Origin: an uncultured Bacteroidaceae bacterium
Lineage (GTDB): Bacteria; Bacteroidota; Bacteroidia; Bacteroidales; Bacteroidaceae
Assembly (NCBI GenBank): GCA_944320785.1
Contig: CALUIR010000001.1
Coordinates: forward strand, 124,001-188,000
Reading direction: 5' to 3'
Length of the DNA stretch: 64,000 bases
The notes beneath the pieces were generated by a model that saw only the letters and a program-made list of their open reading frames with translations, searched no databases and was not told the DNA's origin. Every line of letters begins with the position of its first letter. Positions within the stretch are counted from its first letter, which is position 1. Both the position numbers and the translations under genes were made by a program. Of the stretch, positions 3,057 to 59,239 are shown piece by piece.

Positions 3057-3386
3057 TCAATAATTGTTTGAAATATGTTCAATCGTCTCGTTCAGTTCCC
3101 GCCACGCCTGCTCCAGCTCGCCCAGCAATGCCAAGCCTTCTGCCGTCAGCCGGTAATACTTGCGCGGAGGCCCTTGGGTGGACTCCACCCATTCATACTC
3201 CAGCAACCCGTCTTTCTTCAGCCGCATCAGCAAGGGATACAAGGTGCCTTCCACCACAATCAGCCGGGCTTCCTTCAAACGGCGGATAATGTCGGAGGAA
3301 TACAACGGCTGCCTGCGCAGCAGCAACAGCACCCCATATTCCAACACCCCTTTCCGCATCTGGGATTTCACATTGTCCGCATTCAT
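3057..3386 (-). CDS. PadR-family transcriptional regulator
   Basis: 109 residues from the ATG at 3386 (MNADNVKSQMRKG). This is a compact PadR winged helix: the LLLLRRQPLYSSDIIRRLK segment, the typical VVEGTLYPLLMRLKKDGLL wing and recognition-helix region, GPPRKYYRLTAEG, and a C-terminal dimerisation helix. PadR proteins are usually repressors that bind palindromic operators in their own promoters. One such palindrome lies at 3441-3458, just upstream of a -7 box at 3411-3418. The longer in-frame extension upstream runs through this promoter and is not used. The regulator probably controls itself and the PspC-like gene behind it. Confidence 0.9.
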   Translation of the reverse strand: MNADNVKSQMRKGVLEYGVLLLLRRQPLYSSDIIRRLKEARLIVVEGTLYPLLMRLKKDGLLEYEWVESTQGPPRKYYRLTAEGLALLGELEQAWRELNETIEHISNNY

Positions 3387-3909: not shown

Positions 3910-5868
3910 ATGAAAAAGACCTTGTTGCCCATCCTGCTCATTGCGGCAGCTTGCTTCCCCGCTTCGGGGAAAGACTACCCGCTATCCTCGCCCAACGGCG
4001 AAATCCAAATCACCCTGTCCACCGGCGACACGCTTTCCTGCCAAGTGGCCTACAAAGGAATGCCCTTGTTTGAGAAATGCCACCTCCAACTCTTGGCGGA
4101 AGGAAAAGGATGGGAACGCGGACCGCACGTGGCAAAAGCCCGGCGTGAATCAGTGGACGAAAGGCTGAAGCCCTTGTTCCCGCTCAAGGAATCGTCCGTG
4201 CGGAACCATTACAACCAACTGCAATTGCTGTTCAAAGGCGGGTACGGGCTGGAACTCCGCGCCTTCGACAACGGCATCGCCTACCGCTTCTTCACCTCCT
4301 GCCGGGACTCCATCTGCATCGAAGACGAAAAGCTCCGCATCACGTTCCCCGGTTCCTGCCTGCTCCACCTGCAACAGGCAGGGTCGTTCCAGACATCGTA
4401 TGAGGAGCCTTACACCCATGTGCCGAGCGAACAATGGAACGACAAGGCAGCCGTGGCCGTGCTGCCCCTGCTCATCGACACGCAGAAAGGCTGCAAGATA
4501 CTGGCCAGCGAATCAGACGTGAGGGACTACCCGGCGATGTTTTTCAAAACAGACGGCAACAACGGGCTGGCCTCCGCCTTCCCCCAAGCGCCCGCCCAAT
4601 GGGAACCGCAAGGCGACAGAGGCTCGAAAATCCTGGAAGAATGCAGCTATATCGCCAAAACCACGGGGACAAGGCGCCTCCCGTGGCGGTATTTTGTCAT
4701 CAGCGATGACGATGCGGCCTTCATCGAGAACACCATGACCTTCCAATTGGCCGGGGAAAATGCCTTGGAGGACACCGGATGGATTCGCCCCGGGCTGGCA
4801 AGCTGGGAATGGTGGAATGGCGCCACGCCCTACGGCTCCGCCGTGGATTTCACGGCAGGCTGCAATACGGACACCTACAAATACTTCATCGACTTCGCCG
4901 CACACTACGGCATTTCCTACATCTTAATGGACGAAGGCTGGGCGGAAGACACGAGGAACCCGTTTATCCCCAACCCGGATGTGGATATGCAAGCGTTAAT
5001 CCGCTACGGGAAAGAGAAAAACGTGGGCATCTTGTTATGGCTGACCTGGCTGGCGGCAGAGGAGCATCCCGACGTGTTTGAGAAGTTCGGCCAATGGGGC
5101 ATCAAGGGCGTGAAAATAGATTTCATGGACCGGAGCGACCAATGGATGGTGAATTTCTATGAACGTGTGGCAAAAGAGGCCGCCAAGCATCATTTGCTGG
5201 TGGACTTCCACGGTTCATTCAAACCTTCCGGGCTGGAATATGTTTATCCGAACATCCTCTCCTATGAAGGCGTGAGAGGCATGGAACAGATGGGAGGCTG
5301 CCATCCCGACAACAGCCTTTACCTCCCTTTCATCCGCAATGCCGTGGGAGCGATGGACTACACACCGGGCGCCATGCTCTGCATGCAGCCGGAAGCCTAT
5401 GCGTCAAACCGCCCCAATGCCGCCAGCATCGGCACGCGCGCCTACCAGATGGCACTGTACATCGTGTTTGAAAGCAGCCTGCAAATGATGGCAGACAACC
5501 CCACACTTTATTACCGCAATGACGAATGCACGCGCTTCATCACGCAAATACCGCAAACATGGGACGAAACCATTGCTTTAGAGGCGGAAGCAGGGGAATA
5601 TGCCGTTGTCGCAAAACGGAAGGGAGACAAATGGTTCATCGGGGGCATCACCAACAACCGGCAACCTTGGCGCGGCTTCACCATCGCGCTTGACTTCCTT
5701 GAAGAAGGGAAAACCTACCGCATGGTTTCATTTGAAGACGGGGCAAATGCACCCCGCCAAGCCATGGACTACCGCAGGAAAGAAACCCTCATGAAAGCAG
5801 GCGGCACATATACCCTCCGCTTGGCGCGCAACGGAGGCTTTGCCGCCATCCTTGAAGAAACGGAATGA
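3910..5868 (+). CDS. GH97 family glycosidase (alpha-galactosidase/alpha-glucosidase type), exported
   Basis: 652 residues. A signal peptide (MKKTLLPILLIAAACFPASG) points to the periplasm, so the ATG at 3910 is preferred over upstream in-frame codons. The N-terminal beta-sandwich is followed by a TIM barrel with ASWEWWNGATPYG, YILMDEGWAED and GVKIDFMDRSDQ, then LVDFHGSFKPSG and SYEGVRG, and a C-terminal beta domain. In GH97, retaining members carry an Asp nucleophile in the KxDF segment, here Asp at about residue 404; inverting SusB-type enzymes lack it. That favours a retaining alpha-galactosidase-like enzyme. No SusC/SusD genes are adjacent, so it is not in an obvious polysaccharide utilisation locus. 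Confidence 0.9.
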   Translation: MKKTLLPILLIAAACFPASGKDYPLSSPNGEIQITLSTGDTLSCQVAYKGMPLFEKCHLQLLAEGKGWERGPHVAKARRESVDERLKPLFPLKESSVRNHYNQLQLLFKGGYGLELRAFDNGIAYRFFTSCRDSICIEDEKLRITFPGSCLLHLQQAGSFQTSYEEPYTHVPSEQWNDKAAVAVLPLLIDTQKGCKILASESDVRDYPAMFFKTDGNNGLASAFPQAPAQWEPQGDRGSKILEECSYIAKTTGTRRLPWRYFVISDDDAAFIENTMTFQLAGENALEDTGWIRPGLASWEWWNGATPYGSAVDFTAGCNTDTYKYFIDFAAHYGISYILMDEGWAEDTRNPFIPNPDVDMQALIRYGKEKNVGILLWLTWLAAEEHPDVFEKFGQWGIKGVKIDFMDRSDQWMVNFYERVAKEAAKHHLLVDFHGSFKPSGLEYVYPNILSYEGVRGMEQMGGCHPDNSLYLPFIRNAVGAMDYTPGAMLCMQPEAYASNRPNAASIGTRAYQMALYIVFESSLQMMADNPTLYYRNDECTRFITQIPQTWDETIALEAEAGEYAVVAKRKGDKWFIGGITNNRQPWRGFTIALDFLEEGKTYRMVSFEDGANAPRQAMDYRRKETLMKAGGTYTLRLARNGGFAAILEETE

Positions 5869-5919
5869 CAAGACCCTGGAAACATCCCTGAAGCAACTCG
5901 CCTTCGCAGGGCGATGGCT

Positions 5920-8900
5920 TCATTCTCCCTTCAACGCCATGATTTCCTGCAGGATGCCGATGGCTTTCTGCACGGACGGCACTTCCTTGACCACCATGCT
6001 GCGCTTGCCGTTCTGTTCGCGCAGGTTGCAGAGACGGGGATGGCTGCCCATGTATTCTATCATCTTGCCGAAAGCGGCGCTTTGGTAGTAAAGGCTGTCG
6101 GGATTGCTGACAAAGAACAGCACCATCCTCCCGGCTTTCAAAAAGACTTTTTCCACACCCAGTTGCTTGGCCATGCGCCGCAAAGGGACAACAAGGAGCA
6201 ACTCTTGGCCCTCTTCGGGGATTTTCCCGAAACGGTCTTCCAGTTCTTTGCGGAAACGTTCCACGTCCTGGTCGGATTCCATGCTGTCCAACTCCCGGTA
6301 AAGCAGCATCCGCTCGCTGCTGTTGGGGATGTATTCATTGGGGAACAGCAGTTCAAGGTCGCTTTCAATGGTGCAGTCATCCACAAACTCCCCGCCATCG
6401 GCTTTCTTGCCGCCGGCCGCATACAGGTCGGGGAACTCCTCGGTCTTCAGTTCTTTCACCGCCTCGCCCAGAATCTTCTGGTAGGTTTCGTAGCCCAAAT
6501 CGGCAATGAAACCGCTTTGTTCGGCACCCAGCATGTTGCCCGCGCCCCGAATATCCAAGTCCTGCATCGCGATATGAATGCCGCTTCCCAAATCCGAAAA
6601 GTTTTCAATGGCTTGCAGGCGGCGGCGCGCCTCGCTGGTCAAATCAGACATAGGCGGCGCCAGCAAATAACAAAATGCCTTTTTGTTGCTTCTGCCCACG
6701 CGCCCCCTCATCTGGTGCAAATCGCTCAGCCCGAAGTTCTGCGCTTCGTTGATGATGATGGTGTTGGCATTGGGGATGTCGATGCCGCTCTCGATAATCG
6801 TGGTGGCAATCAGCACGTCGTATTCATAGTTCACGAAGTCCAGGATGATTTTCTCCAGTTTTTCCGGCTCCATCTGCCCGTGGCCGATGCAAATGCGCGC
6901 GTCCGGCACGTTGCGTTTCACGATGGCCGCCAGTTCGGGAAGGTTCTGGATGCGGTTGTTCACGAAAAACACCTGCCCGTTGCGCCCCATTTCAAAGGAG
7001 ACAGCCTCACGGATGATGTCTTCGTTGAAGGCATATACTTCCGTCTGTATCGGGTAACGGTTGGGAGGAGGCGTGCTGATGACCGAAAGGTCGCGCGCGC
7101 CCATCAGCGAGAATTGCAACGTGCGCGGGATAGGCGTTGCCGTCATGGTCAGCGTGTCCACGTTCACCTTCAGTTGCCTTAGCTTCTCTTTCACCGCCAC
7201 GCCGAATTTCTGCTCCTCATCCACGATGAGCAAGCCCAAGTCCTTGAAATGCACGTCCTTCCCGATAATGCGGTGCGTGCCTATCAAGATGTCCACGTTT
7301 CCTTCCTGCAAGTTCTTCAACACTTTCTTCGCGTCAGGCGATTTGCGGGCGCGGCTCAAGTAATCCACCCGGCAAGGGAAGCCTTTCAAGCGTTCGCTGA
7401 ACGTCTGGTAATGCTGGTAAGCCAGCACAGTGGTAGGCACCAGCACGGCCACCTGCTTGTTGTCGGCCACGGCCTTAAAGGCTGCGCGAACAGCTACTTC
7501 CGTTTTCCCGAACCCCACGTCCCCGCAAATCAAGCGGTCCATCGGGCGGTCGGCCTCCATGTCCTGCTTCACATCTTGGGTAGCCTTCAACTGATCCGGG
7601 GTATCTTCATAAAGGAATGACGCTTCCAATTCGTGCTGCAGGAAAGAATCTTTGCTGAAACTGAAGCCTTTTTCCTCGCGCCGCTGCGAATACAGTTTGA
7701 TGAGGTCGCGGGCTATGTCCTTGATTTTTGTCTTGGTGCGTTCCTTCATCTTCTCCCACGCGCCGGTGCCTAATTTGCTCAAGCGGGGAGGTTCCCCCTC
7801 TTTCCCTTTGTACTTGGACACCTTATGCAAGGAATGGATGCTGACAAACACCACATCGTCGTTCTGGTAAACCAGCTTGATGGCTTCCTGCGTCGTGCTT
7901 CCATTGGGCAAACGCACCAATCCCGCAAATTTCCCGATGCCGTGGTCCGTATGCACGACATAATCGCCGGGCTGGAACATGTTCAGTTCCTTCAGGCTCA
8001 ATGCCACTTTGCCGCTGCGCGCCTTATCGCTTTTCAAGTTGTACTTATGGAAACGGTCGAACACCTGATGGTCGGTGAAAAAACAGCAACGAAGCGTATG
8101 ATCCACGAAACCTTCGTGCAAAGTCTTGTCAATGGCGGTGAAAGGAATTTGGTCGCCCCGCTCCTCGAAGATGGCACGAAGCCGGTCAGTCTGCTTCACA
8201 CTGTCGCTGCATATGTAAATGGCATAGCCTTTGGACAGGTAATCCAAGAAGGAAGCACTGGCAAGATCGAAATTCTTATGGTAAATCGGCTGCGGGGAAC
8301 AGGCAAAATCATACGTGGCCTCCACGCCCGCAGACGGCTTTGTGCCGAACTCTGCCCGGCGGAAACGGCACAATTGCTTCATGAAAGGCTCCACATCCAC
8401 CAAATCGCAAGACGGATGCCCCGCAGAAGCGCCGTTATCTTCCGGCGGAGACGCCAACAAAGATGCCGCCTCCTCATGCATCATCTTCGCGCGTTCGTGA
8501 ATCCACAGCAGTTTTTTCATGCACACCACCGTATGCGGAGGCAAGAAATCCAGGAAGCACACTGTCTCTCCTCCCGAAGCTGTTCCAGATACAATGGAAA
8601 CGCCCCGTTTCTGCTCCTTCGACAACTGCGACTCCACTTCAAAAGTACGGATGCTGTCTATCTCATCACCGAAAAAATCAACGCGGTACGGATATTCACA
8701 CGAAAAAGAAAACACATCGATGATACTGCCCCGAACGGCATATTGCCCCGGTTCATACACATAATCCACCCGGCTGAAACCCAACTCCTGCAAGGTTTCC
8801 GTGATGCCTGAAATCTTCCTTTCCTGGCCTACTTCCAAATCCAACGTCCGGGCAGACAAATCACTCATGGACACGACCTTCTCCACCAATGCATCCGGAT

Positions 8901-34593: not shown

Positions 34594-36231
34594 TTAAAGG
34601 TGAATCACTTCATCACATGCCTCCACTACCCCGGCATGATGGGTGACAAACACCACCGTCTGCCCCGAACAACACTTACGTAGATTGGCCATCAGCCTAC
34701 GTTCCGTATGCACATCCAACGCTGAGGTCGCCTCATCGAAAAGCAACACCCGCCCACGGCACATCAACGCCCTAGCGATGGCAATACGCTGCATCTGCCC
34801 CTCTGACAATCCGCCGCCCGCTTCTTCCAACACCGTATCCAAACCGTCTCTCCACTCCAGCACGAAACCTGCCTCCGCCACCCGAAGCATGTCCGCCATC
34901 TCTGCATCCGTTGCCTGAGGATTGCCCATCCACAGATTCTCACGGACAGTGCCGCTGAACAGGGCATCGCCTTGCTGCACATACACAAAATTGCCCCTTG
35001 TGAGCGGTGACACCGCCACCACGCCGTGAGCATCGCACAAAGAAACACTCCCCGAATCCGGCGGCACCAAAGCCAGAAGCAAGCGAACCAACGTGGTCTT
35101 GCCCACACCACTCTCTCCCACCACGGCAGTAAAACGGCCTGCCGCAAAACAAGCATTAAAGCTACTAAACACCTCCGTGCCACCTGGATAAGAAAAAGAC
35201 ACCGCACGGAATCGGATGGATGGAGCCTCCTTCAGCAAAATAGGCGAGCCACTTTCCTCCTCCGGCAACGCCTCCAATTCTTGCAAACGTTCTATAGCGG
35301 TATAAGCCGTGACGAACGAAGGGAATAAAGACACCAAATCAAAAGCCGGGCGCTGGATATAGCCCACCAATTGCAGGAAAGCCGCCATCGCACCAAAAGA
35401 AATCTCACCCATACCCAAGCGATAAGCTCCCCATACAAAGACCAGCAAATAACCTCCGCCGAAACCCACAGAAAGCATCATCCTTGAAGCAGCAGACAAA
35501 CGGACACGCTTCCTTACATGGCACCTCAACCCGTCCTGCAGCTTTCGGAGAATCTTCATCCTGTCATCCACCCGCCCCAAAGCTTTCACGAACGCATGGT
35601 GCTGCAAATTCTCTTGCATGGCAGATTGGATCCGGCTCTCCTCCTCACGTACGGCACGGACATGGCGGTGCATCCGTCCTGCATACCATCTGCCACCTGC
35701 CAGACATACAACCATCAACACCAAAAGCCACCAAGCAAGAGCCGCATCAAGGCTGCACAAATAAACAAATGACAACAGGAACTGCAACGAGACAATCCCC
35801 ACATCAGGAAGTACCACGGAAGCGAAGCGAGCCACATCCTCCACATCCCGGTTTGCCCTGCCCAATAAATCACCGGTATGATAACGGTTCAAGTTCCACC
35901 AACGGCAACGAAGCAAATGCGCGTAAAACCTATTACGAAGGCTTACTTTCATCTCAAAAGGCAACATCCCGCTCTGCCAATCACCCATAGAAGCAAAAGC
36001 CAGACGACCCACGATGAATCCCGACATCACCAAAGCCGCCTGTTTGAAAGAACCGTCCTGCGCCCCTGTCGCAATATCAACCATCCATTTGGAGGCCATC
36101 ACAAAGCCTAAGCTGCATGCTATCTCCAGTCCACCTGCCAGACCGCTGAACAGCACCTTCCATCTCAGCCCTTGCATAGCATCGGAAAGCCACTGCCCTT
36201 TCAAATACAAAACCTTTAACCTGCTTGCCAT
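34594..36231 (-). CDS. ABC exporter, fused permease and ATPase (RiPP-like operon)
   Basis: 545 residues: six transmembrane helices over the first ~310 residues, then a nucleotide-binding domain with Walker A VGESGVGKTT, Q-loop YVQQGDALFSG, signature LSEGQMQR, Walker B LLFDEATSALD and H-loop VTHHAG. A type IV exporter half-transporter without an N-terminal C39 peptidase, so any leader removal must be done by another protein. It is the last gene of a five-gene minus-strand operon with only 4 bases to the nucleotidyltransferase gene. The cargo is unknown; a modified peptide is the favoured inference. Confidence 0.93.
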   Translation of the reverse strand: MASRLKVLYLKGQWLSDAMQGLRWKVLFSGLAGGLEIACSLGFVMASKWMVDIATGAQDGSFKQAALVMSGFIVGRLAFASMGDWQSGMLPFEMKVSLRNRFYAHLLRCRWWNLNRYHTGDLLGRANRDVEDVARFASVVLPDVGIVSLQFLLSFVYLCSLDAALAWWLLVLMVVCLAGGRWYAGRMHRHVRAVREEESRIQSAMQENLQHHAFVKALGRVDDRMKILRKLQDGLRCHVRKRVRLSAASRMMLSVGFGGGYLLVFVWGAYRLGMGEISFGAMAAFLQLVGYIQRPAFDLVSLFPSFVTAYTAIERLQELEALPEEESGSPILLKEAPSIRFRAVSFSYPGGTEVFSSFNACFAAGRFTAVVGESGVGKTTLVRLLLALVPPDSGSVSLCDAHGVVAVSPLTRGNFVYVQQGDALFSGTVRENLWMGNPQATDAEMADMLRVAEAGFVLEWRDGLDTVLEEAGGGLSEGQMQRIAIARALMCRGRVLLFDEATSALDVHTERRLMANLRKCCSGQTVVFVTHHAGVVEACDEVIHL

Positions 36232-36235
36232 TTTG

Positions 36236-37339
36236 TCAATCCAATCCTCTCAATTTCTTCAACATGAAATTCAACACCCGCCAATATGGATACGAACTCA
36301 CCAATGCCGGGCAAAAACCCTTCATCCCGTCGCACCGCTTCCTGATACGAAAGAAATTACGCCACACCGTCCTCCATCCCCCGGCAGCTTCGCCATAGGA
36401 ACGTTTCTTCCCCCAATTCCCTCCTTCCAACATGTCGGCAAAGAAAGCGTCTCCCCTCCCGGCCGCCTCCTCAAGGCCGGCATGGACATAAACGGAAGGC
36501 AACCCCAAATAGCGCACAGCAATGTAGCCGAACACTTTATAAGCATCCTCTATCCCCAAACGGCGCAAATCCCGTTGCAAACAGGCTGTGTCTATCTCAT
36601 CCGCACATTCCCGCAGCACGACTGCCCAGTCCATGACCTGCCGCAAGGCCACTCCGTCGGGAATAAAATGGAGCAGGATATGCACCAGCAGGTACACGGC
36701 ATTGAACTGCCCCGGCGGGCATTGCACCTCCATGCCGCCAAACGGCACCCGCGCTTCCTTGCCTGGCAAGTGCTGCCTCACCCAAGCCTGCAAACGCCAG
36801 TCGTACAAGGGGTGATAGAAACAGGCAGCCCGGCGATGGTTCTCCACCTCTACGTCTTGATAGAGGTAACTCAAATGCTTCTCCCCCTCAGTTGCCATCT
36901 TGATGCCCTGCGTCCGGGAGAGCAAGACCTTGGCTTTCCGGTAATCACGCCCCAAGAACAAATCAATGTCACCGCACTGCCGGTGCGACGGGCAGGGATA
37001 AAAACGTGCCACCCCCCGGCCTTTCAGCAACACCGGGCGGATGCCCTCCCCGGCATACAAGGAAAGCAACGATGCCAAAGCGGCATCGGCCCGTCGGTTG
37101 GCCCGCTCCGTCTGCAACACAAAGGCATACCACTTCAAGATCATCTCCTGCGGCGGGCGGCAGTCTTCCGGCAACATCTCTAACCCGTCGAACGCAATGC
37201 CGGCCACTGCCTGTTCCTTGGAGAGCCGGAACAGTCCGCCCCAAGCGACCTTCCGCCCACGGAACAAAGCGGCATCCACCGGCATTTTCCACAATCCGGC
37301 CCGAAGCAAAGCCAAGAAACATTTCACGTCCGCTTCCAT
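36236..37339 (-). CDS. Nucleotidyltransferase family protein (NTP_transf_5-like)
   Basis: 367 residues. The signature LLKGRGVARFYPCPSHRQCGDIDLFLG near residue 105-130 contains the G-G-hxDxD-type metal site (GDIDLFL) of the polymerase-beta superfamily, in the form typical of uncharacterised nucleotidyltransferases (PF14907). Members occur in lasso-peptide and other RiPP clusters with HPr-kinase-like and PqqD-like proteins. It could nucleotidylate a peptide, a protein or a small substrate; nothing in the sequence decides. It lies 9 bases from the PqqD-like gene and 4 from the ABC exporter gene. Confidence 0.85.
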   Translation of the reverse strand: MEADVKCFLALLRAGLWKMPVDAALFRGRKVAWGGLFRLSKEQAVAGIAFDGLEMLPEDCRPPQEMILKWYAFVLQTERANRRADAALASLLSLYAGEGIRPVLLKGRGVARFYPCPSHRQCGDIDLFLGRDYRKAKVLLSRTQGIKMATEGEKHLSYLYQDVEVENHRRAACFYHPLYDWRLQAWVRQHLPGKEARVPFGGMEVQCPPGQFNAVYLLVHILLHFIPDGVALRQVMDWAVVLRECADEIDTACLQRDLRRLGIEDAYKVFGYIAVRYLGLPSVYVHAGLEEAAGRGDAFFADMLEGGNWGKKRSYGEAAGGWRTVWRNFFRIRKRCDGMKGFCPALVSSYPYWRVLNFMLKKLRGLD

Positions 37340-37348
37340 TCGCTTCCC

Positions 37349-37621
37349 CTATTCCTCCTGCACAAGGCCTGATTCCCGCCAAGCCGCCAACAATCCTTCC
37401 GCATCACGGAGTGCCGTGGCCGCGTCCACTTCATAACGTCCCTCCAACAATGCCGCCAAGGTGGAGGCATCAAACGGGATGCCCTTCACCTGCTGCCACA
37501 GCCAGGCCGCGCTTTCATTCAAGGCGACCAGCTTGTTGAAATCCACTTCTCCCGCCCCGCAGGCCATGACGGCCTTGACACCGCAAATGTCCCGCAACAC
37601 AAATCCTTCCTTTATTCTCAT
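37349..37621 (-). CDS. PqqD-like RiPP recognition element protein
   Basis: 90 residues from the ATG at 37621 (MRIKEGFVLRDICG). It matches stand-alone PqqD-family proteins: N-terminal beta hairpin (FVLRDICGVKAVMACG), then FNKLVALNESAAWLWQQVKG and a helical C terminus with DAEGLLAAWRESGLV. Such proteins fold as a winged-helix RRE that binds the leader of a ribosomally made peptide and presents it to modifying enzymes. This is the strongest sign that the operon handles a peptide. The longer upstream extension overlaps the preceding gene and is discarded. Confidence 0.85.
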   Translation of the reverse strand: MRIKEGFVLRDICGVKAVMACGAGEVDFNKLVALNESAAWLWQQVKGIPFDASTLAALLEGRYEVDAATALRDAEGLLAAWRESGLVQEE

Positions 37622-37635
37622 TCCCAAAACTTTTA

Positions 37636-38094
37636 TTATAACCTTCGCCAAATGGCCAACAATTCCCGCCGAAACGGGCGAAGCAAGTGCCAAACGACGG
37701 TATAGGATTTCCATAACCGGCCTGCGCAGGAGATGTCTTTTCCCTTCCGCACCACGCGCCCCGCCACGCCCAGCACATCCGCCACAGGCACCTGCTCCGT
37801 GGCAGACACATTGCCGTCGCCCTGCAACTCCAACCGCGTGCCGCTCACCCGGGCCACCCGGTGGAGGACATAACGCCCGTTGCCCAAGCGCGCAAAAACC
37901 ACCATCCCGGACTGCACGCCGTCCACTGCCCCTGCCAACGGGTCCAGCACCACTTCATCGCGCCCGTCCACCAAAAACGGGTTCATGCTGTCTCCCCTCA
38001 CCTTCATACGGACGGAATGGCCTTGACGCAACAACTCGCCGACCTGCGGATAAAACACACGACCCGGCACCTGCATGCATTCCTGCCCTTTCAT
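37636..38094 (-). CDS. S24/S26-like serine peptidase with Ser/His dyad
   Basis: 152 residues. KVRGDSMNPFLVDGRDEVVL gives the nucleophile Ser near residue 36 in the (R/S)GDSMxP motif of S24/S26 peptidases. GRYVLHRVARVSG gives His in place of the usual Lys general base, as in archaeal and ER-type signal peptidases. There is no obvious transmembrane anchor, so it is probably cytoplasmic or peripheral. In this operon it could cut the leader from a modified peptide. Its ATG overlaps the stop of the HPr-kinase-like gene (ATGA), so the two are coupled. Confidence 0.8.
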   Translation of the reverse strand: MKGQECMQVPGRVFYPQVGELLRQGHSVRMKVRGDSMNPFLVDGRDEVVLDPLAGAVDGVQSGMVVFARLGNGRYVLHRVARVSGTRLELQGDGNVSATEQVPVADVLGVAGRVVRKGKDISCAGRLWKSYTVVWHLLRPFRRELLAIWRRL

Positions 38095-38981
38095 CGCGCC
38101 ACCGTTTTATGCGAAAGGAGCGCCGCCTCCTTGTCAGGAAGACATTCAAAATGATACACCGGCACCGCTTCTGCCACATCAGAAACGATATCGCACAAAA
38201 GGCCGAAAGCCGCATCGTCCCACCGCATGTTGAAACAGGACGGAAGCAGTTCGGCAAACCCGTGAAGGGCGTCACGCCTGCTTATCACATTCGCCCGCCC
38301 TTGCTCCAAGCGCACGAAAGCGCCTAACGGCATGCCCACGTCGCGGTAGCAAGGCGTTTTCCCGCTCCACGGAGTACCGTAAGCCATCACGCTGCCTCCT
38401 GCAAGGCGCACCACCGGGTTGTCGTCGTTCAGCAACTCGCTTCCCTCCACATGTTCCCGCCACAGGCGGGCATGGGTGCTTTTCCCCGTCCCGCTCTTCC
38501 CCAAAAACAGGTAAGCCTTGCCTTGCCACGCCACCGCCGCCGCATGGAGCAGCAACGTTCCCCGGCGCAAAGCCGAGAATGCGTAAGCCAGCATCAGGAA
38601 ATTGTTCAGCACAAGGGCATCATAGGGCGTGCCGCGCAAGCAGGCCGTAACTACTGCGAACGAAGCATCGGCGTGCATCACATACGGCTTCTCGGCATGG
38701 GGCGGGCGGATGCAGAAATAATGCTCCTGCCCGTCCTGCCGGATGAGGCACGACAGCCCGTCCCACTCAAAACGCCAAACCTCACCGCCAAGGGCGGAAA
38801 CCTCCTCGCGGAAAGAAAAAGTGAACAGCGGAGACGGCCCCGCCTCCTCCGCGCCAAGGAAAGGCTCGTAGGAGGGAAGGAGAGCGCGCAACCGTCCCGG
38901 GAAGCGGGCGCAGACCTCGAAAAGATGCCCCGCCACCTTGTATCTGACCGTCCTGATTCCTGCGTCTTCCATGCCATCCAT
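38091..38981 (-). CDS. HPr kinase/PEPCK-like kinase of a RiPP-like operon
   Basis: 296 residues from the ATG at 38981; the ATG at 38972 is also possible. After a ~135-residue N-terminal domain comes the P-loop LFLGKSGTGKSTHARLW near residue 165, then LLNDDNPVVRL (HPrK-type metal/catalytic region) and YGTPWSGKTP. It lacks the length and partner genes of true HprK/P. Related kinases in lasso-peptide clusters phosphorylate the precursor peptide. First gene of the operon; its -7 box is only a few bases upstream, so the mRNA is nearly leaderless. Confidence 0.85.
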   Translation of the reverse strand: MDGMEDAGIRTVRYKVAGHLFEVCARFPGRLRALLPSYEPFLGAEEAGPSPLFTFSFREEVSALGGEVWRFEWDGLSCLIRQDGQEHYFCIRPPHAEKPYVMHADASFAVVTACLRGTPYDALVLNNFLMLAYAFSALRRGTLLLHAAAVAWQGKAYLFLGKSGTGKSTHARLWREHVEGSELLNDDNPVVRLAGGSVMAYGTPWSGKTPCYRDVGMPLGAFVRLEQGRANVISRRDALHGFAELLPSCFNMRWDDAAFGLLCDIVSDVAEAVPVYHFECLPDKEAALLSHKTVAR

Positions 38982-38995: not shown

Positions 38996-39082
38996 CGCAA
39001 CCCCGGGCAAATCGGCACGCCTACAAGCAAAAAAAATTCCACTTGCACGGGAAACAAACCCGGTTTGCCCGCATAAAAACTT

Positions 39083-39164
39083 CATCCTTAGGTTAGAGAT
39101 GCACATCCTTAGGCTAAGGATGTATATCTTTAGCCTAAAGATGCACATCCTCAACCTAAAGATA
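39083..39164. repeat. Palindrome array C: four 19-bp palindromes, 21-bp period
   Basis: Units start at 39083, 39104, 39125 and 39146, exactly 21 bases apart with 2-base spacers. Unit 2, CATCCTTAGGCTAAGGATG, is a near-perfect palindrome; units 1, 3 and 4 are variants (for example TATCTTTAGCCTAAAGATG). Just beyond is GAAGTTTCCACAC (from about 39185), nearly the same as beside array A1. Lies upstream of the RiPP-like operon promoter. Confidence 0.85.
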
Positions 39165-39274
39165 AAGAAGTTGCCCGCCTGAACCGAAGTTTCCACACGG
39201 GCAAGCCGAAAAGCCCCTGCGCACAAACAAAAAGAAACGGGATATTTACCTTTTCCTACCTTCCTTCCTAGCAT

Positions 39275-57323: not shown

Positions 57324-57556
57324 ATAGATGTTTTTCTTGCAAAAATACAAATTTATTGCGTCGGCATCTACAAGCACCTGCAAATACGCTTAGTCAAACT
57401 TGTTTAGCCGTCTTCGATTTATACTAATCAATAAATGCATAACCACAGGTGAAGCATATGGAATTGAGGACATTGAAGTCCATGGAAATTATGACGATAA
57501 CCAATTAGTACAAAAAAATGTCGCTACTTTTTCATCATTATCTGCAAAAAATCATT

Positions 57557-57564
57557 TACTTTTG
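57557..57564 (+). promoter_or_regulatory. -7 promoter box of the 57.6 kb exported-protein gene
   Basis: TACTTTTG, 34 bases upstream of the ATG at 57599. Between it and the nuclease gene (57324-57556) I see no gene. Confidence 0.55.
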
Positions 57565-57598
57565 CAACATTAAAACAAGTATATTCCAGTTGAATAAC

Positions 57599-59062
57599 AT
57601 GACAATCCGAAAATTACTTCTCACCCTCACCGTCATTCTGGCTTTCGCCTGCCACGGAATGGGCGACAATCTCGACAGCACGCAATATGTGCTGGCCGTG
57701 GAATATGAAGGAAAGTGGTATGCCATGCGGCAATCCATCAGCAGCGGAGGGGCAAGAGCCACCGAAATTGAAGTGGTGGACAACAGCTACACGACCGCCA
57801 ATGATGACAACCTGATTTGGATATTAGGCATATACAATAATCTATACAAAGAAAATGAACGGCATTTGAAAGCACAAAGCGGGAAATATTTGTGTTATCA
57901 TGAGAAAGACGGCACAAACTTGTCTTTTTCAACAGGTTCAGACACTCAATGGACTTTTGAAGAACAAGCAGATGGGAGCTACACCCTCACCCCGGATGCT
58001 GACGCGAATCGCAGATTAGCCTTTTCATCCAACAGTGGCAATCCCATATTCAAATGCTATACAGACGGTTATAACTATTACATCTACAACTTCCGCCTTC
58101 TCCCCGTTTGCCAACAAGACAGCGGAACCAAAGCAATAACCTTGAAAGCCACATGGGACGCGGAAAGGCTCGGCCAATTAGACCTGAGCAATGCCACCAG
58201 CGTTGACTTGCGGCAGATAGAAATCCCGGCCAATGTGCAATGGGACGAAGGAAGAAACCCGAACTGCCTGGTTTATGTTGCCCCAAATGCAGCGAACACC
58301 GAAAGTATTCCCAACTTGATTCAAGTGGACGAAAACGGCAACGCCGCCGCACCGCACGAAATCATCCTGCAAGACGGACACGATTTCTGCAACAAACTGC
58401 CCTTTACCGGCAGCATCCGCTACACGCGCCGCCTGTATGAAGGATGGTCCACCTTGGCCTTGCCTTTCCCTTACCTCCTGCAAGGCGAAAGCATGGAGGA
58501 GTTCAGCAGCGCGGACGATGATGCCGTGACATTCACAACAACTGCCGCCACCACATTGGAAGCCAACAAAGCCTACCTTATTTATATGGATGCGGAAACC
58601 GACAAGGTGTTCGCCGCTGAGAATGCCAACGTGCCTGCCACCTTCATCGACAAAAGCACGCCATTCATGGCCAACTTCGTCACCTTCACGATGGCCAACG
58701 ATGACCATCTCTACAAACTGAACAATGACGGCACTGCTTTCAACCACTCTGACGGCACAGCCCCTGTGAGTGCTTTCAGGGCGTATTTGGATTTAAACGG
58801 ATATACGGAGGCAAGCAGCCCCAAAAGAATTGTCCACCGCAAAGAGAACCCGACAGGAATCCATGCAAAAGATGGCGGTTTCCCCGCCATCACCTACCGG
58901 GAAGGCACGCTATGCATCACGGCCGATGCCCCACAAATGCTGCACATCTACACGATGGATGGCAAAATGGTGCAGTCCGTGCGCCTGCATGTCGGGACAA
59001 ACCACATCCGCATCCCGCTGAAAGGCATGTACCTCCTCAACAACCGGAAATTCATCTTCTAA
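57599..59062 (+). CDS. Exported protein of unknown function with truncated T9SS-like tail
   Basis: 487 residues from the ATG at 57599 (MTIRKLLLTLTVILAFACHG). The N-terminal ~160 residues (YVLAVEYEGKWYAMRQS, KYLCYHEKDGTNLSF, YNYYIYNFRLLPV) look like a lectin-type beta trefoil or sandwich. A middle domain contains RRLYEGWSTLALPFPY, frequent in Bacteroidales surface proteins. The end (MLHIYTMDGKMVQSVRLHVG, GMYLLNNRKFIF) resembles a sorting domain without the basic tail. Function unknown. A 54-residue peptide gene follows 12 bases later. Confidence 0.75.
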   Translation: MTIRKLLLTLTVILAFACHGMGDNLDSTQYVLAVEYEGKWYAMRQSISSGGARATEIEVVDNSYTTANDDNLIWILGIYNNLYKENERHLKAQSGKYLCYHEKDGTNLSFSTGSDTQWTFEEQADGSYTLTPDADANRRLAFSSNSGNPIFKCYTDGYNYYIYNFRLLPVCQQDSGTKAITLKATWDAERLGQLDLSNATSVDLRQIEIPANVQWDEGRNPNCLVYVAPNAANTESIPNLIQVDENGNAAAPHEIILQDGHDFCNKLPFTGSIRYTRRLYEGWSTLALPFPYLLQGESMEEFSSADDDAVTFTTTAATTLEANKAYLIYMDAETDKVFAAENANVPATFIDKSTPFMANFVTFTMANDDHLYKLNNDGTAFNHSDGTAPVSAFRAYLDLNGYTEASSPKRIVHRKENPTGIHAKDGGFPAITYREGTLCITADAPQMLHIYTMDGKMVQSVRLHVGTNHIRIPLKGMYLLNNRKFIF

Positions 59063-59074
59063 CAATATACCGAC

Positions 59075-59239
59075 ATGAAAACAAAAGAAACGTACATCAA
59101 GCCGGAAATCACCGTCATCGAAATGGAATGCCCGGAAGTGATTGCCGCTTCCCACACCGACATCCCGTTCGATGAAAGCTACGACAACAGCCCTGCGCGC
59201 TCCGCACGACGCGACTTCTGGGGCAACGGCGAAGAATAA
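59075..59239 (+). CDS. Small conserved-looking peptide, possible secreted or RiPP-like peptide
   Basis: 54 residues, MKTKETYIKPEITVIEMECP followed by EVIAASHTDIPFDES and an Arg/Gly tail ending FWGNGEE. The pattern MK..YIKPEI.VIE.E...VIAAS then a variable polar tail is common in short Bacteroidales proteins of unknown function. It has no signal peptide. The constant N-terminal half and variable C-terminal half resemble a leader/core layout, but no modifying enzyme is adjacent. Twelve bases behind the exported-protein gene, so cotranscribed. Confidence 0.7.
   Translation: MKTKETYIKPEITVIEMECPEVIAASHTDIPFDESYDNSPARSARRDFWGNGEE

Follow-up and report, generated by a model that had tools for sequence, protein, structure and literature searches.

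We analysed five tightly packed genes on the minus strand of a 64,000-nucleotide stretch of DNA (the window) from an uncultured Bacteroidaceae bacterium, together with the short peptides that their products may mature. In their order on that strand they encode a putative HprK-like peptide kinase (38091..38981), a serine peptidase of signal-peptidase/S24-like (S26-like) type (37636..38094), a discrete PqqD-like protein resembling the recognition elements (RREs) of ribosomally synthesized and post-translationally modified peptides (RiPPs; 37349..37621), an NTP_transf_5 nucleotidyltransferase (36236..37339) and an ATP-binding cassette (ABC) exporter with permease and ATPase (34594..36231). The gaps are −4, 14, 9 and 4 bases, the kinase and peptidase genes overlapping by 4 bases; order and spacing are those given in the initial annotation, which had been made from the letters of the window. 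The kinase is taken to start at an ATG, its open reading frame (ORF) being likewise open at a TTG further upstream (38990). The RRE likely starts at 37621, not at the longer ORF start at 37714, because most aligned homologues begin at that methionine.

Family searches assigned the nucleotidyltransferase to PF14907 (NTP_transf_5; 7.5e-42), the RRE protein to PF05402 (PqqD; 4.9e-13) and the exporter to PF00005 and PF00664, with no peptidase domain found in the exporter by the Pfam scan. The peptidase matched Peptidase_S24 (1.4e-4) and the kinase matched HprK_rel_A across 74 residues (6.4e-7), both below the cut-off. These two weak assignments stand up in alignments of homologues: at 1e-3, 23 of 32 kinase homologues match TIGR04352 and 23 of 32 match TIGR04249, while Peptidase_S24 is matched by 26 of 47 peptidase homologues.

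The larger alignments consisted of subsets plus the window's sequence (45 RREs passing a start-motif and length filter, and 46 of 66 peptidases and 31 of 55 kinases passing a length filter). In the 32 kinases the P-loop (SGTGKST), H146, NDDNP and PWSGKTPCY are invariant, within a total of 30 invariant columns; a more diverse set of 17 sequences retains 23. S36, H78 and D93 of the peptidase are invariant in 47 sequences, and N35 and D73 of the RRE in 46. Judged from these residues, the kinase, the peptidase and the RRE look active, and the five genes form a real operon that looks functional.

The predicted structure of the RRE (predicted local distance difference test score, pLDDT, 88.3) has three strands followed by three helices. 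Its top six matches in the PDB are TbiB1 and TfuB1 chains in complex with lasso leaders, with PqqD next, and TfuB1 is also the only PDB match by sequence at E≤0.01; the model thus agrees with the RRE fold proposed in the initial annotation. The model of the peptidase (pLDDT 92.0) matches S24/S26-type folds: LexA, lambda repressor and UmuD come first (E from 2.9e-4), and signal peptidases rank lower (SpsB, 2.4e-3).

The RRE fold is nearest to lasso B1 proteins, and paeninodin-type lasso clusters contain the same accessory genes (an HprK-like kinase, a discrete RRE and a nucleoside triphosphate (NTP) transferase) together with [Y/W]xxP leaders (PMC13381572). Both points favour a lasso-peptide pathway whose cyclase and B2 protease would be encoded elsewhere in the genome. 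However, neither a macrolactam cyclase nor a transglutaminase-like B2 is among the five operon genes, as initially noted (the rest of the genome was not searched for a cyclase), and a dedicated signal-peptidase-like enzyme occupies the place of B2. The lasso B2 family, PF13471, has zero matches in the window's genome, which is 84% complete; of the 301 genomes of the window's family it matches 14 at E≤1e-3 and passes the cut-off in 3, against 242 with the RRE. Among the gene families that recur in at least 4 of 108 clustered neighbourhoods of relatives we saw no cyclase-like family by eye, no cyclase model having been searched. Locus L147 of genome G032 (L and G numbers denote loci and genomes) has a lasso-type B1-like RRE adjoining a PF13471 match, but this RRE is only weakly similar to that of the window (1.8e-05) and G032 yields no match to the YxxP leader. 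We consider a lasso pathway, already disfavoured, highly improbable.

Likeness to linear polyphosphorylated peptides

The five genes have counterparts in the pathway of the linear polyphosphorylated peptides (LPPs), RiPPs encoded by lppA/K/B/S/D/N of Paenibacillus alginolyticus and published in Nature Communications in May 2026 (PMC13381572). That pathway comprises the HprK-like kinase LppK, the SpI-like peptidase LppS, the RRE LppB, the NTP transferase LppN and the MsbA-like exporter LppD, and no cyclase; in the order of our operon, the predicted counterparts are LppK, LppS, LppB, LppN and LppD. The LPP leader reads YxxPxVLxHQxIxFETxxS, and N33 and D70 of LppB hold the Pro and Tyr of its YxxP. 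LppK adds several phosphates to Ser3 of the core, at +18 from the leader Tyr, and the dependence on the kinase was demonstrated by deletions. LppS, which requires S29, H68 and D93, cuts after the Thr preceding the core and needs LppB to do so. Deletion of lppN left the detectable products unchanged (PMC13381572).

The Bacteroidota system resembles this pathway in its kinase, its discrete RRE with an Asn/Asp pair, its Ser-His-Asp signal-peptidase-like protease, its NTP transferase and ABC exporter, and in having no cyclase among these genes. It is also alike in that its candidate precursors are short, begin with a YxxP leader and have a Ser some 18 residues past the Tyr, and in that some copies lie in polysaccharide loci, just as some Bacillota lpp clusters sit in capsule loci (PMC13381572). 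N33 and D70 of LppB would correspond to N35 and D73 here (spacing 37 and 38, respectively), a match made by spacing and by the alignment with TfuB1.

According to the discussion of the LPP paper, these peptides are restricted to Bacillota, and its results describe the peptidase cluster under study as coming predominantly from that phylum; LPPs occur in 80 of 9173 Bacilli genomes, with a patchy distribution and an unknown role (PMC13381572). In Bacteroidota, by contrast, one family alone has the RRE in 242 of its 301 sampled genomes. Judged by titles and abstract openings, we found no report of LPPs in Bacteroidota in the literature. The type of pathway has been known since the 2026 paper; new here are its occurrence in this phylum, the scattering of the precursors and their pairing with surface proteins. 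LPP-like machinery reported as confined to Bacillota is thus found in Bacteroidota, where its candidate precursors can be listed genome by genome.

Candidate precursors with a YxxP leader

We recognised no precursor ORF within or adjoining the window operon, in keeping with the initial annotation, which had placed it elsewhere, and found a candidate about 20 kb away in the same window. The YxxP leader was first seen in short conserved ORFs adjoining polysaccharide-type copies of the gene set. A conserved precursor adjoining operons of the window type was sought by clustering the small ORFs within 5 kb of the kinase, and was rejected, as only the polysaccharide-locus group gave one. In L052, from a genome of another family (G055), a candidate precursor is encoded on the strand of the kinase, 39 bases upstream of it. 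A regular-expression scan of 150 loci around RREs and kinases and of the window (2.2 Mb including overlaps) gave 163 matches, mostly chance ones, from which 13 seed peptides were chosen by eye, the window ORF at 59075-59239 and that of L052 among them. The profile of these 13 leaders retrieved more; of 49 peptides collected by then, 43 were used for a further profile (A6), which omits near-duplicates (L155, L183 and L185) and poor fits (L062, L172 and L176). The final set comprised 55 peptides, with identical ends removed and a few near-duplicates left.

Y..P is present in 54 of these 55 peptides. In 52 of the 54 a Ser follows the Tyr at a distance of 18 to 20 residues (+19 in 37, +20 in 14 and +18 in 1), whereas three-residue windows clear of this stretch contain a Ser in 2–24 of 54. 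The leaders often have a hydrophobic residue at +5, and an acidic/hydrophobic stretch stands where LPP leaders have HQxIxFET. The cores, with their start taken at +17, are 14–51 residues long and rich in Gly, Ser, Asp and Glu; 35 of 54 peptides have a Trp within the last 12 residues. For the 8 peptides scanned, NCBIfam gave no family at E≤1 and Pfam a single sub-threshold match, in one of them. The analysis also suggests what such short ORFs may be for, a class with no Pfam or NCBIfam family above the cut-off in this sample of 8.

The window peptide (59075..59239, plus strand) is 54 residues long. Its leader motif, Y7xxP10, is encoded at 59093-59104, Ser26 (59150-59152) stands at +19 from the Tyr, and the peptide ends in RRDFWGNGEE. 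By its features this ORF is a strong candidate for the precursor of the operon, and, by analogy with LPPs, Ser26 is the likely phosphorylation site. A core motif near the C-terminus, RRxxWG(N/D), is common to four peptides from three genomes (that of the window, G021 twice and G030), while the rest of the core differs: window:59075-59239 (RRDFWGN), L185:2904-3056, L186:2859-3029 and L034:9724-9879.

Leader matches occur mainly where the RRE is present. In the following counts, which ignore phylogeny, the seeds come from RRE-positive genomes and the seed genomes are within the family set. In a first set of 61 genomes (first profile, E≤1), a leader match was found in 23 of 30 RRE-positive and 10 of 31 RRE-negative genomes, most of the RRE-negative matches sitting in long frames. 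In the window's family (301 genomes), 224 of the 242 RRE-positive genomes and 20 of the 59 RRE-negative ones had a match at E≤0.3; at E≤0.05 these figures fell to 218 of 242 and 14 of 59. The genus of G003 (80 genomes) contributed no seed from its G-numbered genomes, but a named Bacteroides locus, L065, was a seed. There, 35 of 41 RRE-positive and 2 of 39 RRE-negative genomes had a match at E≤0.3, one of the two exceptions lying at E 0.139 and the other in a genome 85% complete; at E≤0.05 the counts were 32 of 41 and 1 of 39. When only genomes at least 90% complete and at most 5% contaminated were retained, 18 of 21 contrasted with 0 of 27 at E≤0.3 (Fisher 2e-10).

For the order, 295 genomes were scanned at a leader threshold of E≤0.05, and 289 of these satisfy the limits of completeness and contamination just given. 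A match was present in 11 of the 19 genomes whose RRE is strong (E≤1e-20), in 4 of the 39 whose RRE is weaker and in 5 of the 237 that lack one; among the last five, one match lies in a 692-residue frame and another contains stops. When the seed genomes G000, G044 and G055 are left out, the strong-RRE group stands at 8 of 16. All six genomes with at least three leader matches have a strong RRE, two of them being G044 and G055. At E≤0.3 single genomes hold up to 25 leader matches (G157; 24 in G115).

Occurrence and layout of the loci

A search with the RRE matched 30 of 61 whole genomes, the window's own included, and the RRE profile (E≤1e-3) matched 242 of the 301 family genomes, or 137 of the 169 that are at least 90% complete and at most 5% contaminated. 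The kinase profile found at least 590 relatives. The best 80 were kept and include Prevotella, Segatella, Hoylesella, Bacteroides, Paraprevotella and uncultured Bacteroidales; by record titles, these bacteria come largely from rumen, faeces and mouth. Six peptide patterns of the kinase gave zero matches in viral contigs.

We compared 109 kinase-bearing loci, after dropping the duplicates L090, L117 and L125; other near-duplicates may remain, and since loci were selected by RRE or kinase similarity their counts do not reflect natural frequencies. In 93 of the 109 the kinase is accompanied by both peptidase and RRE, a grouping that exceeds chance, and in 88 of the 92 loci with all three on one strand they follow in the order kinase, peptidase, RRE. 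Of the 93, 66 have these three genes only, 16 have the exporter in addition, 2 the transferase and 9, the window included, both, so that all five genes are found in 9 of 109 loci. The core in Bacteroidota is thus kinase, peptidase and RRE, and the transferase and exporter are often absent. Five further loci have kinase, RRE and transferase with no peptidase nearby. The remaining 11 have no RRE call nearby (5 with kinase and peptidase, 5 with the exporter too, 1 with the kinase alone), some of them at contig ends.

RRE, transferase and kinase lie among glycosyltransferases and Wza/Wzc-like genes in L054, L056, L057 and L059, and the same set in L060 lies with glycosyltransferases, with no Wza/Wzc nearby. 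Such surroundings would suit a role of these three proteins in the assembly of surface polysaccharides, in which they modify a carrier or an enzyme, with the YxxP ORFs as unrelated small genes that are co-inherited. However, no polysaccharide gene was recognised adjoining the window operon, the YxxP ORFs track the RRE within one genus, and they carry the motif bound by this type of RRE and occur inside the same polysaccharide loci. We consider a polysaccharide role improbable. In the exopolysaccharide loci L054 and L059, the precursor, RRE, transferase, kinase and, further down, peptidase lie within one locus. A YxxP peptide and a large lipoprotein-like gene were also seen in the polysaccharide loci L054 (5689-19527), L059 (9264-19501), L056 and L057.

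The core adjoins housekeeping genes, namely RpoD-like (42 of 108 loci), HtrA-like (35 of 108) and PGK (5 of 108). A protein of about 160 residues is encoded upstream of the kinase in 54 of 108 loci (44 at position −1, 10 at −2; for example L113:5833-6312), has a signal-like N-terminus and, in the one member scanned, no Pfam family above the cut-off. It was set aside as a substrate, the two sequences inspected having a signal-like N-terminus and no YxxP, and it may reflect plain synteny, because it keeps company with RpoD (42 loci) and HtrA (35 loci), often coming after such genes. In 10 loci a clostripain-like gene lies directly upstream (−1) of the kinase.

Candidate exported partner proteins and the proposed pathway

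The stop of the gene at 57518..59062 (plus strand) lies 12 bases before the start of the window precursor (59075). It encodes a protein of 514 residues with a putative signal sequence and a C-terminal tail like those of cargo of the type IX secretion system (T9SS; TIGR04183, 0.038, below the cut-off), a candidate partner of the window peptide. Similar genes flank many of the 55 peptides. We considered same-strand neighbours within 110 bases (36 upstream genes and 12 downstream, genes cut by the end of a locus being uncounted), and took as background 1591 other ORFs of the same DNA, called by a simple greedy procedure. Of the 36 upstream genes, 22 have a T9SS-like end (for example GIYIVNGKKVLVK), versus 21 of the 1591 background ORFs; a lipobox was found in 8 of the 12 downstream genes versus 156 of 1591. 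In total, 30 of the 55 peptides lie within 110 bases of an upstream gene with a T9SS-like tail or a downstream lipobox gene, and several of the uncounted downstream genes resemble lipoproteins. TIGR04183 (T9SS type A tail) matched 5 of 10 scanned upstream proteins at E≤0.1, one of them above the cut-off, and the Pfam tail model matched one of the 10, below its cut-off. Two Peptidase_C25 matches in the window's genome pass the cut-off; if that genome has a T9SS, such matches are to be expected, PorU being a member of the family.

In L192 two related peptides (3059-3211 and 5795-6043) with near-identical core starts (SLINAKNELGD) each lie directly downstream of their own T9SS-tailed protein, suggesting duplication of a peptide–partner unit. 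Over 3 kb (L151/L156) the precursor region of the window's genome shares 97.7% identity with that of the congener G001, which suggests recent exchange or strong constraint; the operon is 79.6% identical, and surrounding 400-base blocks 70–95%.

So tight a linkage between peptide and exported protein (22 of 36 and 8 of 12 neighbours, as above) could also mean that the YxxP peptides are recognised by the RRE and kinase but stay unreleased and serve the neighbouring surface protein as adaptor or chaperone; the true substrate of phosphorylation or processing would then be that protein itself. Against this, the conserved Ser and the leader/core layout match those of LPP precursors, which are themselves cut and phosphorylated (PMC13381572), and the peptides of L052 and the polysaccharide loci sit with the machine itself. 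We regard the adaptor role as unlikely.

Taking together the gene set, the conserved catalytic and leader-binding residues, the RRE fold, the co-occurrence and the linkage of precursors to partners, all obtained by computation, we think it probable that the operon serves an LPP-like RiPP pathway of Bacteroidota, as the machine that matures and exports peptides from dispersed precursors. We do not class it as a full LPP system, because its precursor lies outside the cluster and the lower half of the leader consensus differs. It further differs from the LPPs described in PMC13381572 in phylum (Bacillota there, Bacteroidota here), in the three-gene core of 66 of 109 loci, and in the precursors, which are dispersed, with up to 25 leader matches per genome, and often paired with genes for exported proteins. 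LPP clusters contain their precursor genes, as do L052 and the polysaccharide loci, whereas the window operon does not.

Several observations count against this reading. HQxIxFET is absent from the Bacteroidota leaders, the window operon has no adjacent precursor, and the window's genome (84% complete) gave one leader match only. Export is unexplained in the 66 of 109 loci that have kinase, peptidase and RRE only. The leader profile was trained on RRE-positive genomes from hand-picked seeds, with counts that ignore phylogeny, and the conservation of Y..P and Ser is partly circular, as both are scored by the profile. In the family set, 18 of 242 RRE-positive genomes have no leader match at E≤0.3, and 14 of 59 RRE-negative genomes have one at E≤0.05, 11 of these 14 being less than 90% complete; at order level 8 of 19 strong-RRE genomes have none. 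Some matches lie in long frames and are probably false: the five of G380, counted as positive at E≤0.3, are all in frames of more than 580 residues.

For binding, phosphorylation, the cleavage site and export we infer the following from the Bacillota experiments. The RRE (37349-37621) would grip the YxxP in the leaders of short precursors made elsewhere, such as that at 59075-59239, and present them to the HprK-like kinase, which would phosphorylate the Ser 18–20 residues past the Tyr, and to the Ser-His-Asp peptidase, which would cut about two residues ahead of that Ser. By conjecture, the nucleotidyltransferase may cap the phosphate(s) or extend them. Export of the linear core would fall to the ABC protein; loci with no exporter would have to use another export route. 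The sequence features and the analogy with LPPs support a linear peptide that is recognised, phosphorylated, cut by an S26-type enzyme and exported, is not cyclised and has its precursor encoded elsewhere. The initial annotation, which had envisaged such a peptide, phosphorylated or nucleotidylated, was right for the most part.

One machine would serve many precursors that are not linked to it, and for a large share of these the neighbouring gene encodes a large exported protein. Prochlorosins of cyanobacteria, in which one machine likewise matures many scattered precursors, are alike in this respect and differ in their LanM lanthipeptide chemistry, their leaders and their hosts. The peptide probably acts with the neighbouring exported protein; that its product does so at the surface, with a specific partner, is a conjecture from the gene linkage, which offers a concrete lead on the function of such phosphopeptides. 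We propose, tentatively and as a possibility that is rather doubtful as a whole, that in the window's family and some other families of the order a small machine (kinase, peptidase and RRE, with or without transferase and exporter) matures dispersed YxxP precursors into linear phosphopeptides. Each of these would be produced alongside a single large exported protein, either T9SS cargo or a lipoprotein, and would act on that protein or jointly with it at the cell surface, serving, for instance, as its phosphorylated tag, acceptor or regulator. If so, the system would supply the cell surface with phosphopeptides and would not make a classical secreted antibiotic.

Downstream of the window operon lie genes that we take, by their look and with no search behind the names, to be ffh and folD; in L031 an ffh-sized ORF, and in L042 ffh-sized and folD-sized ORFs, follow the exporter. 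About 100 bases upstream of the kinase start, at 39080-39165, there is a row of short, partly palindromic repeats in which CTTAGGNTAAGGATG-like units alternate with GATGCACATC, possibly a regulatory or attenuator element.

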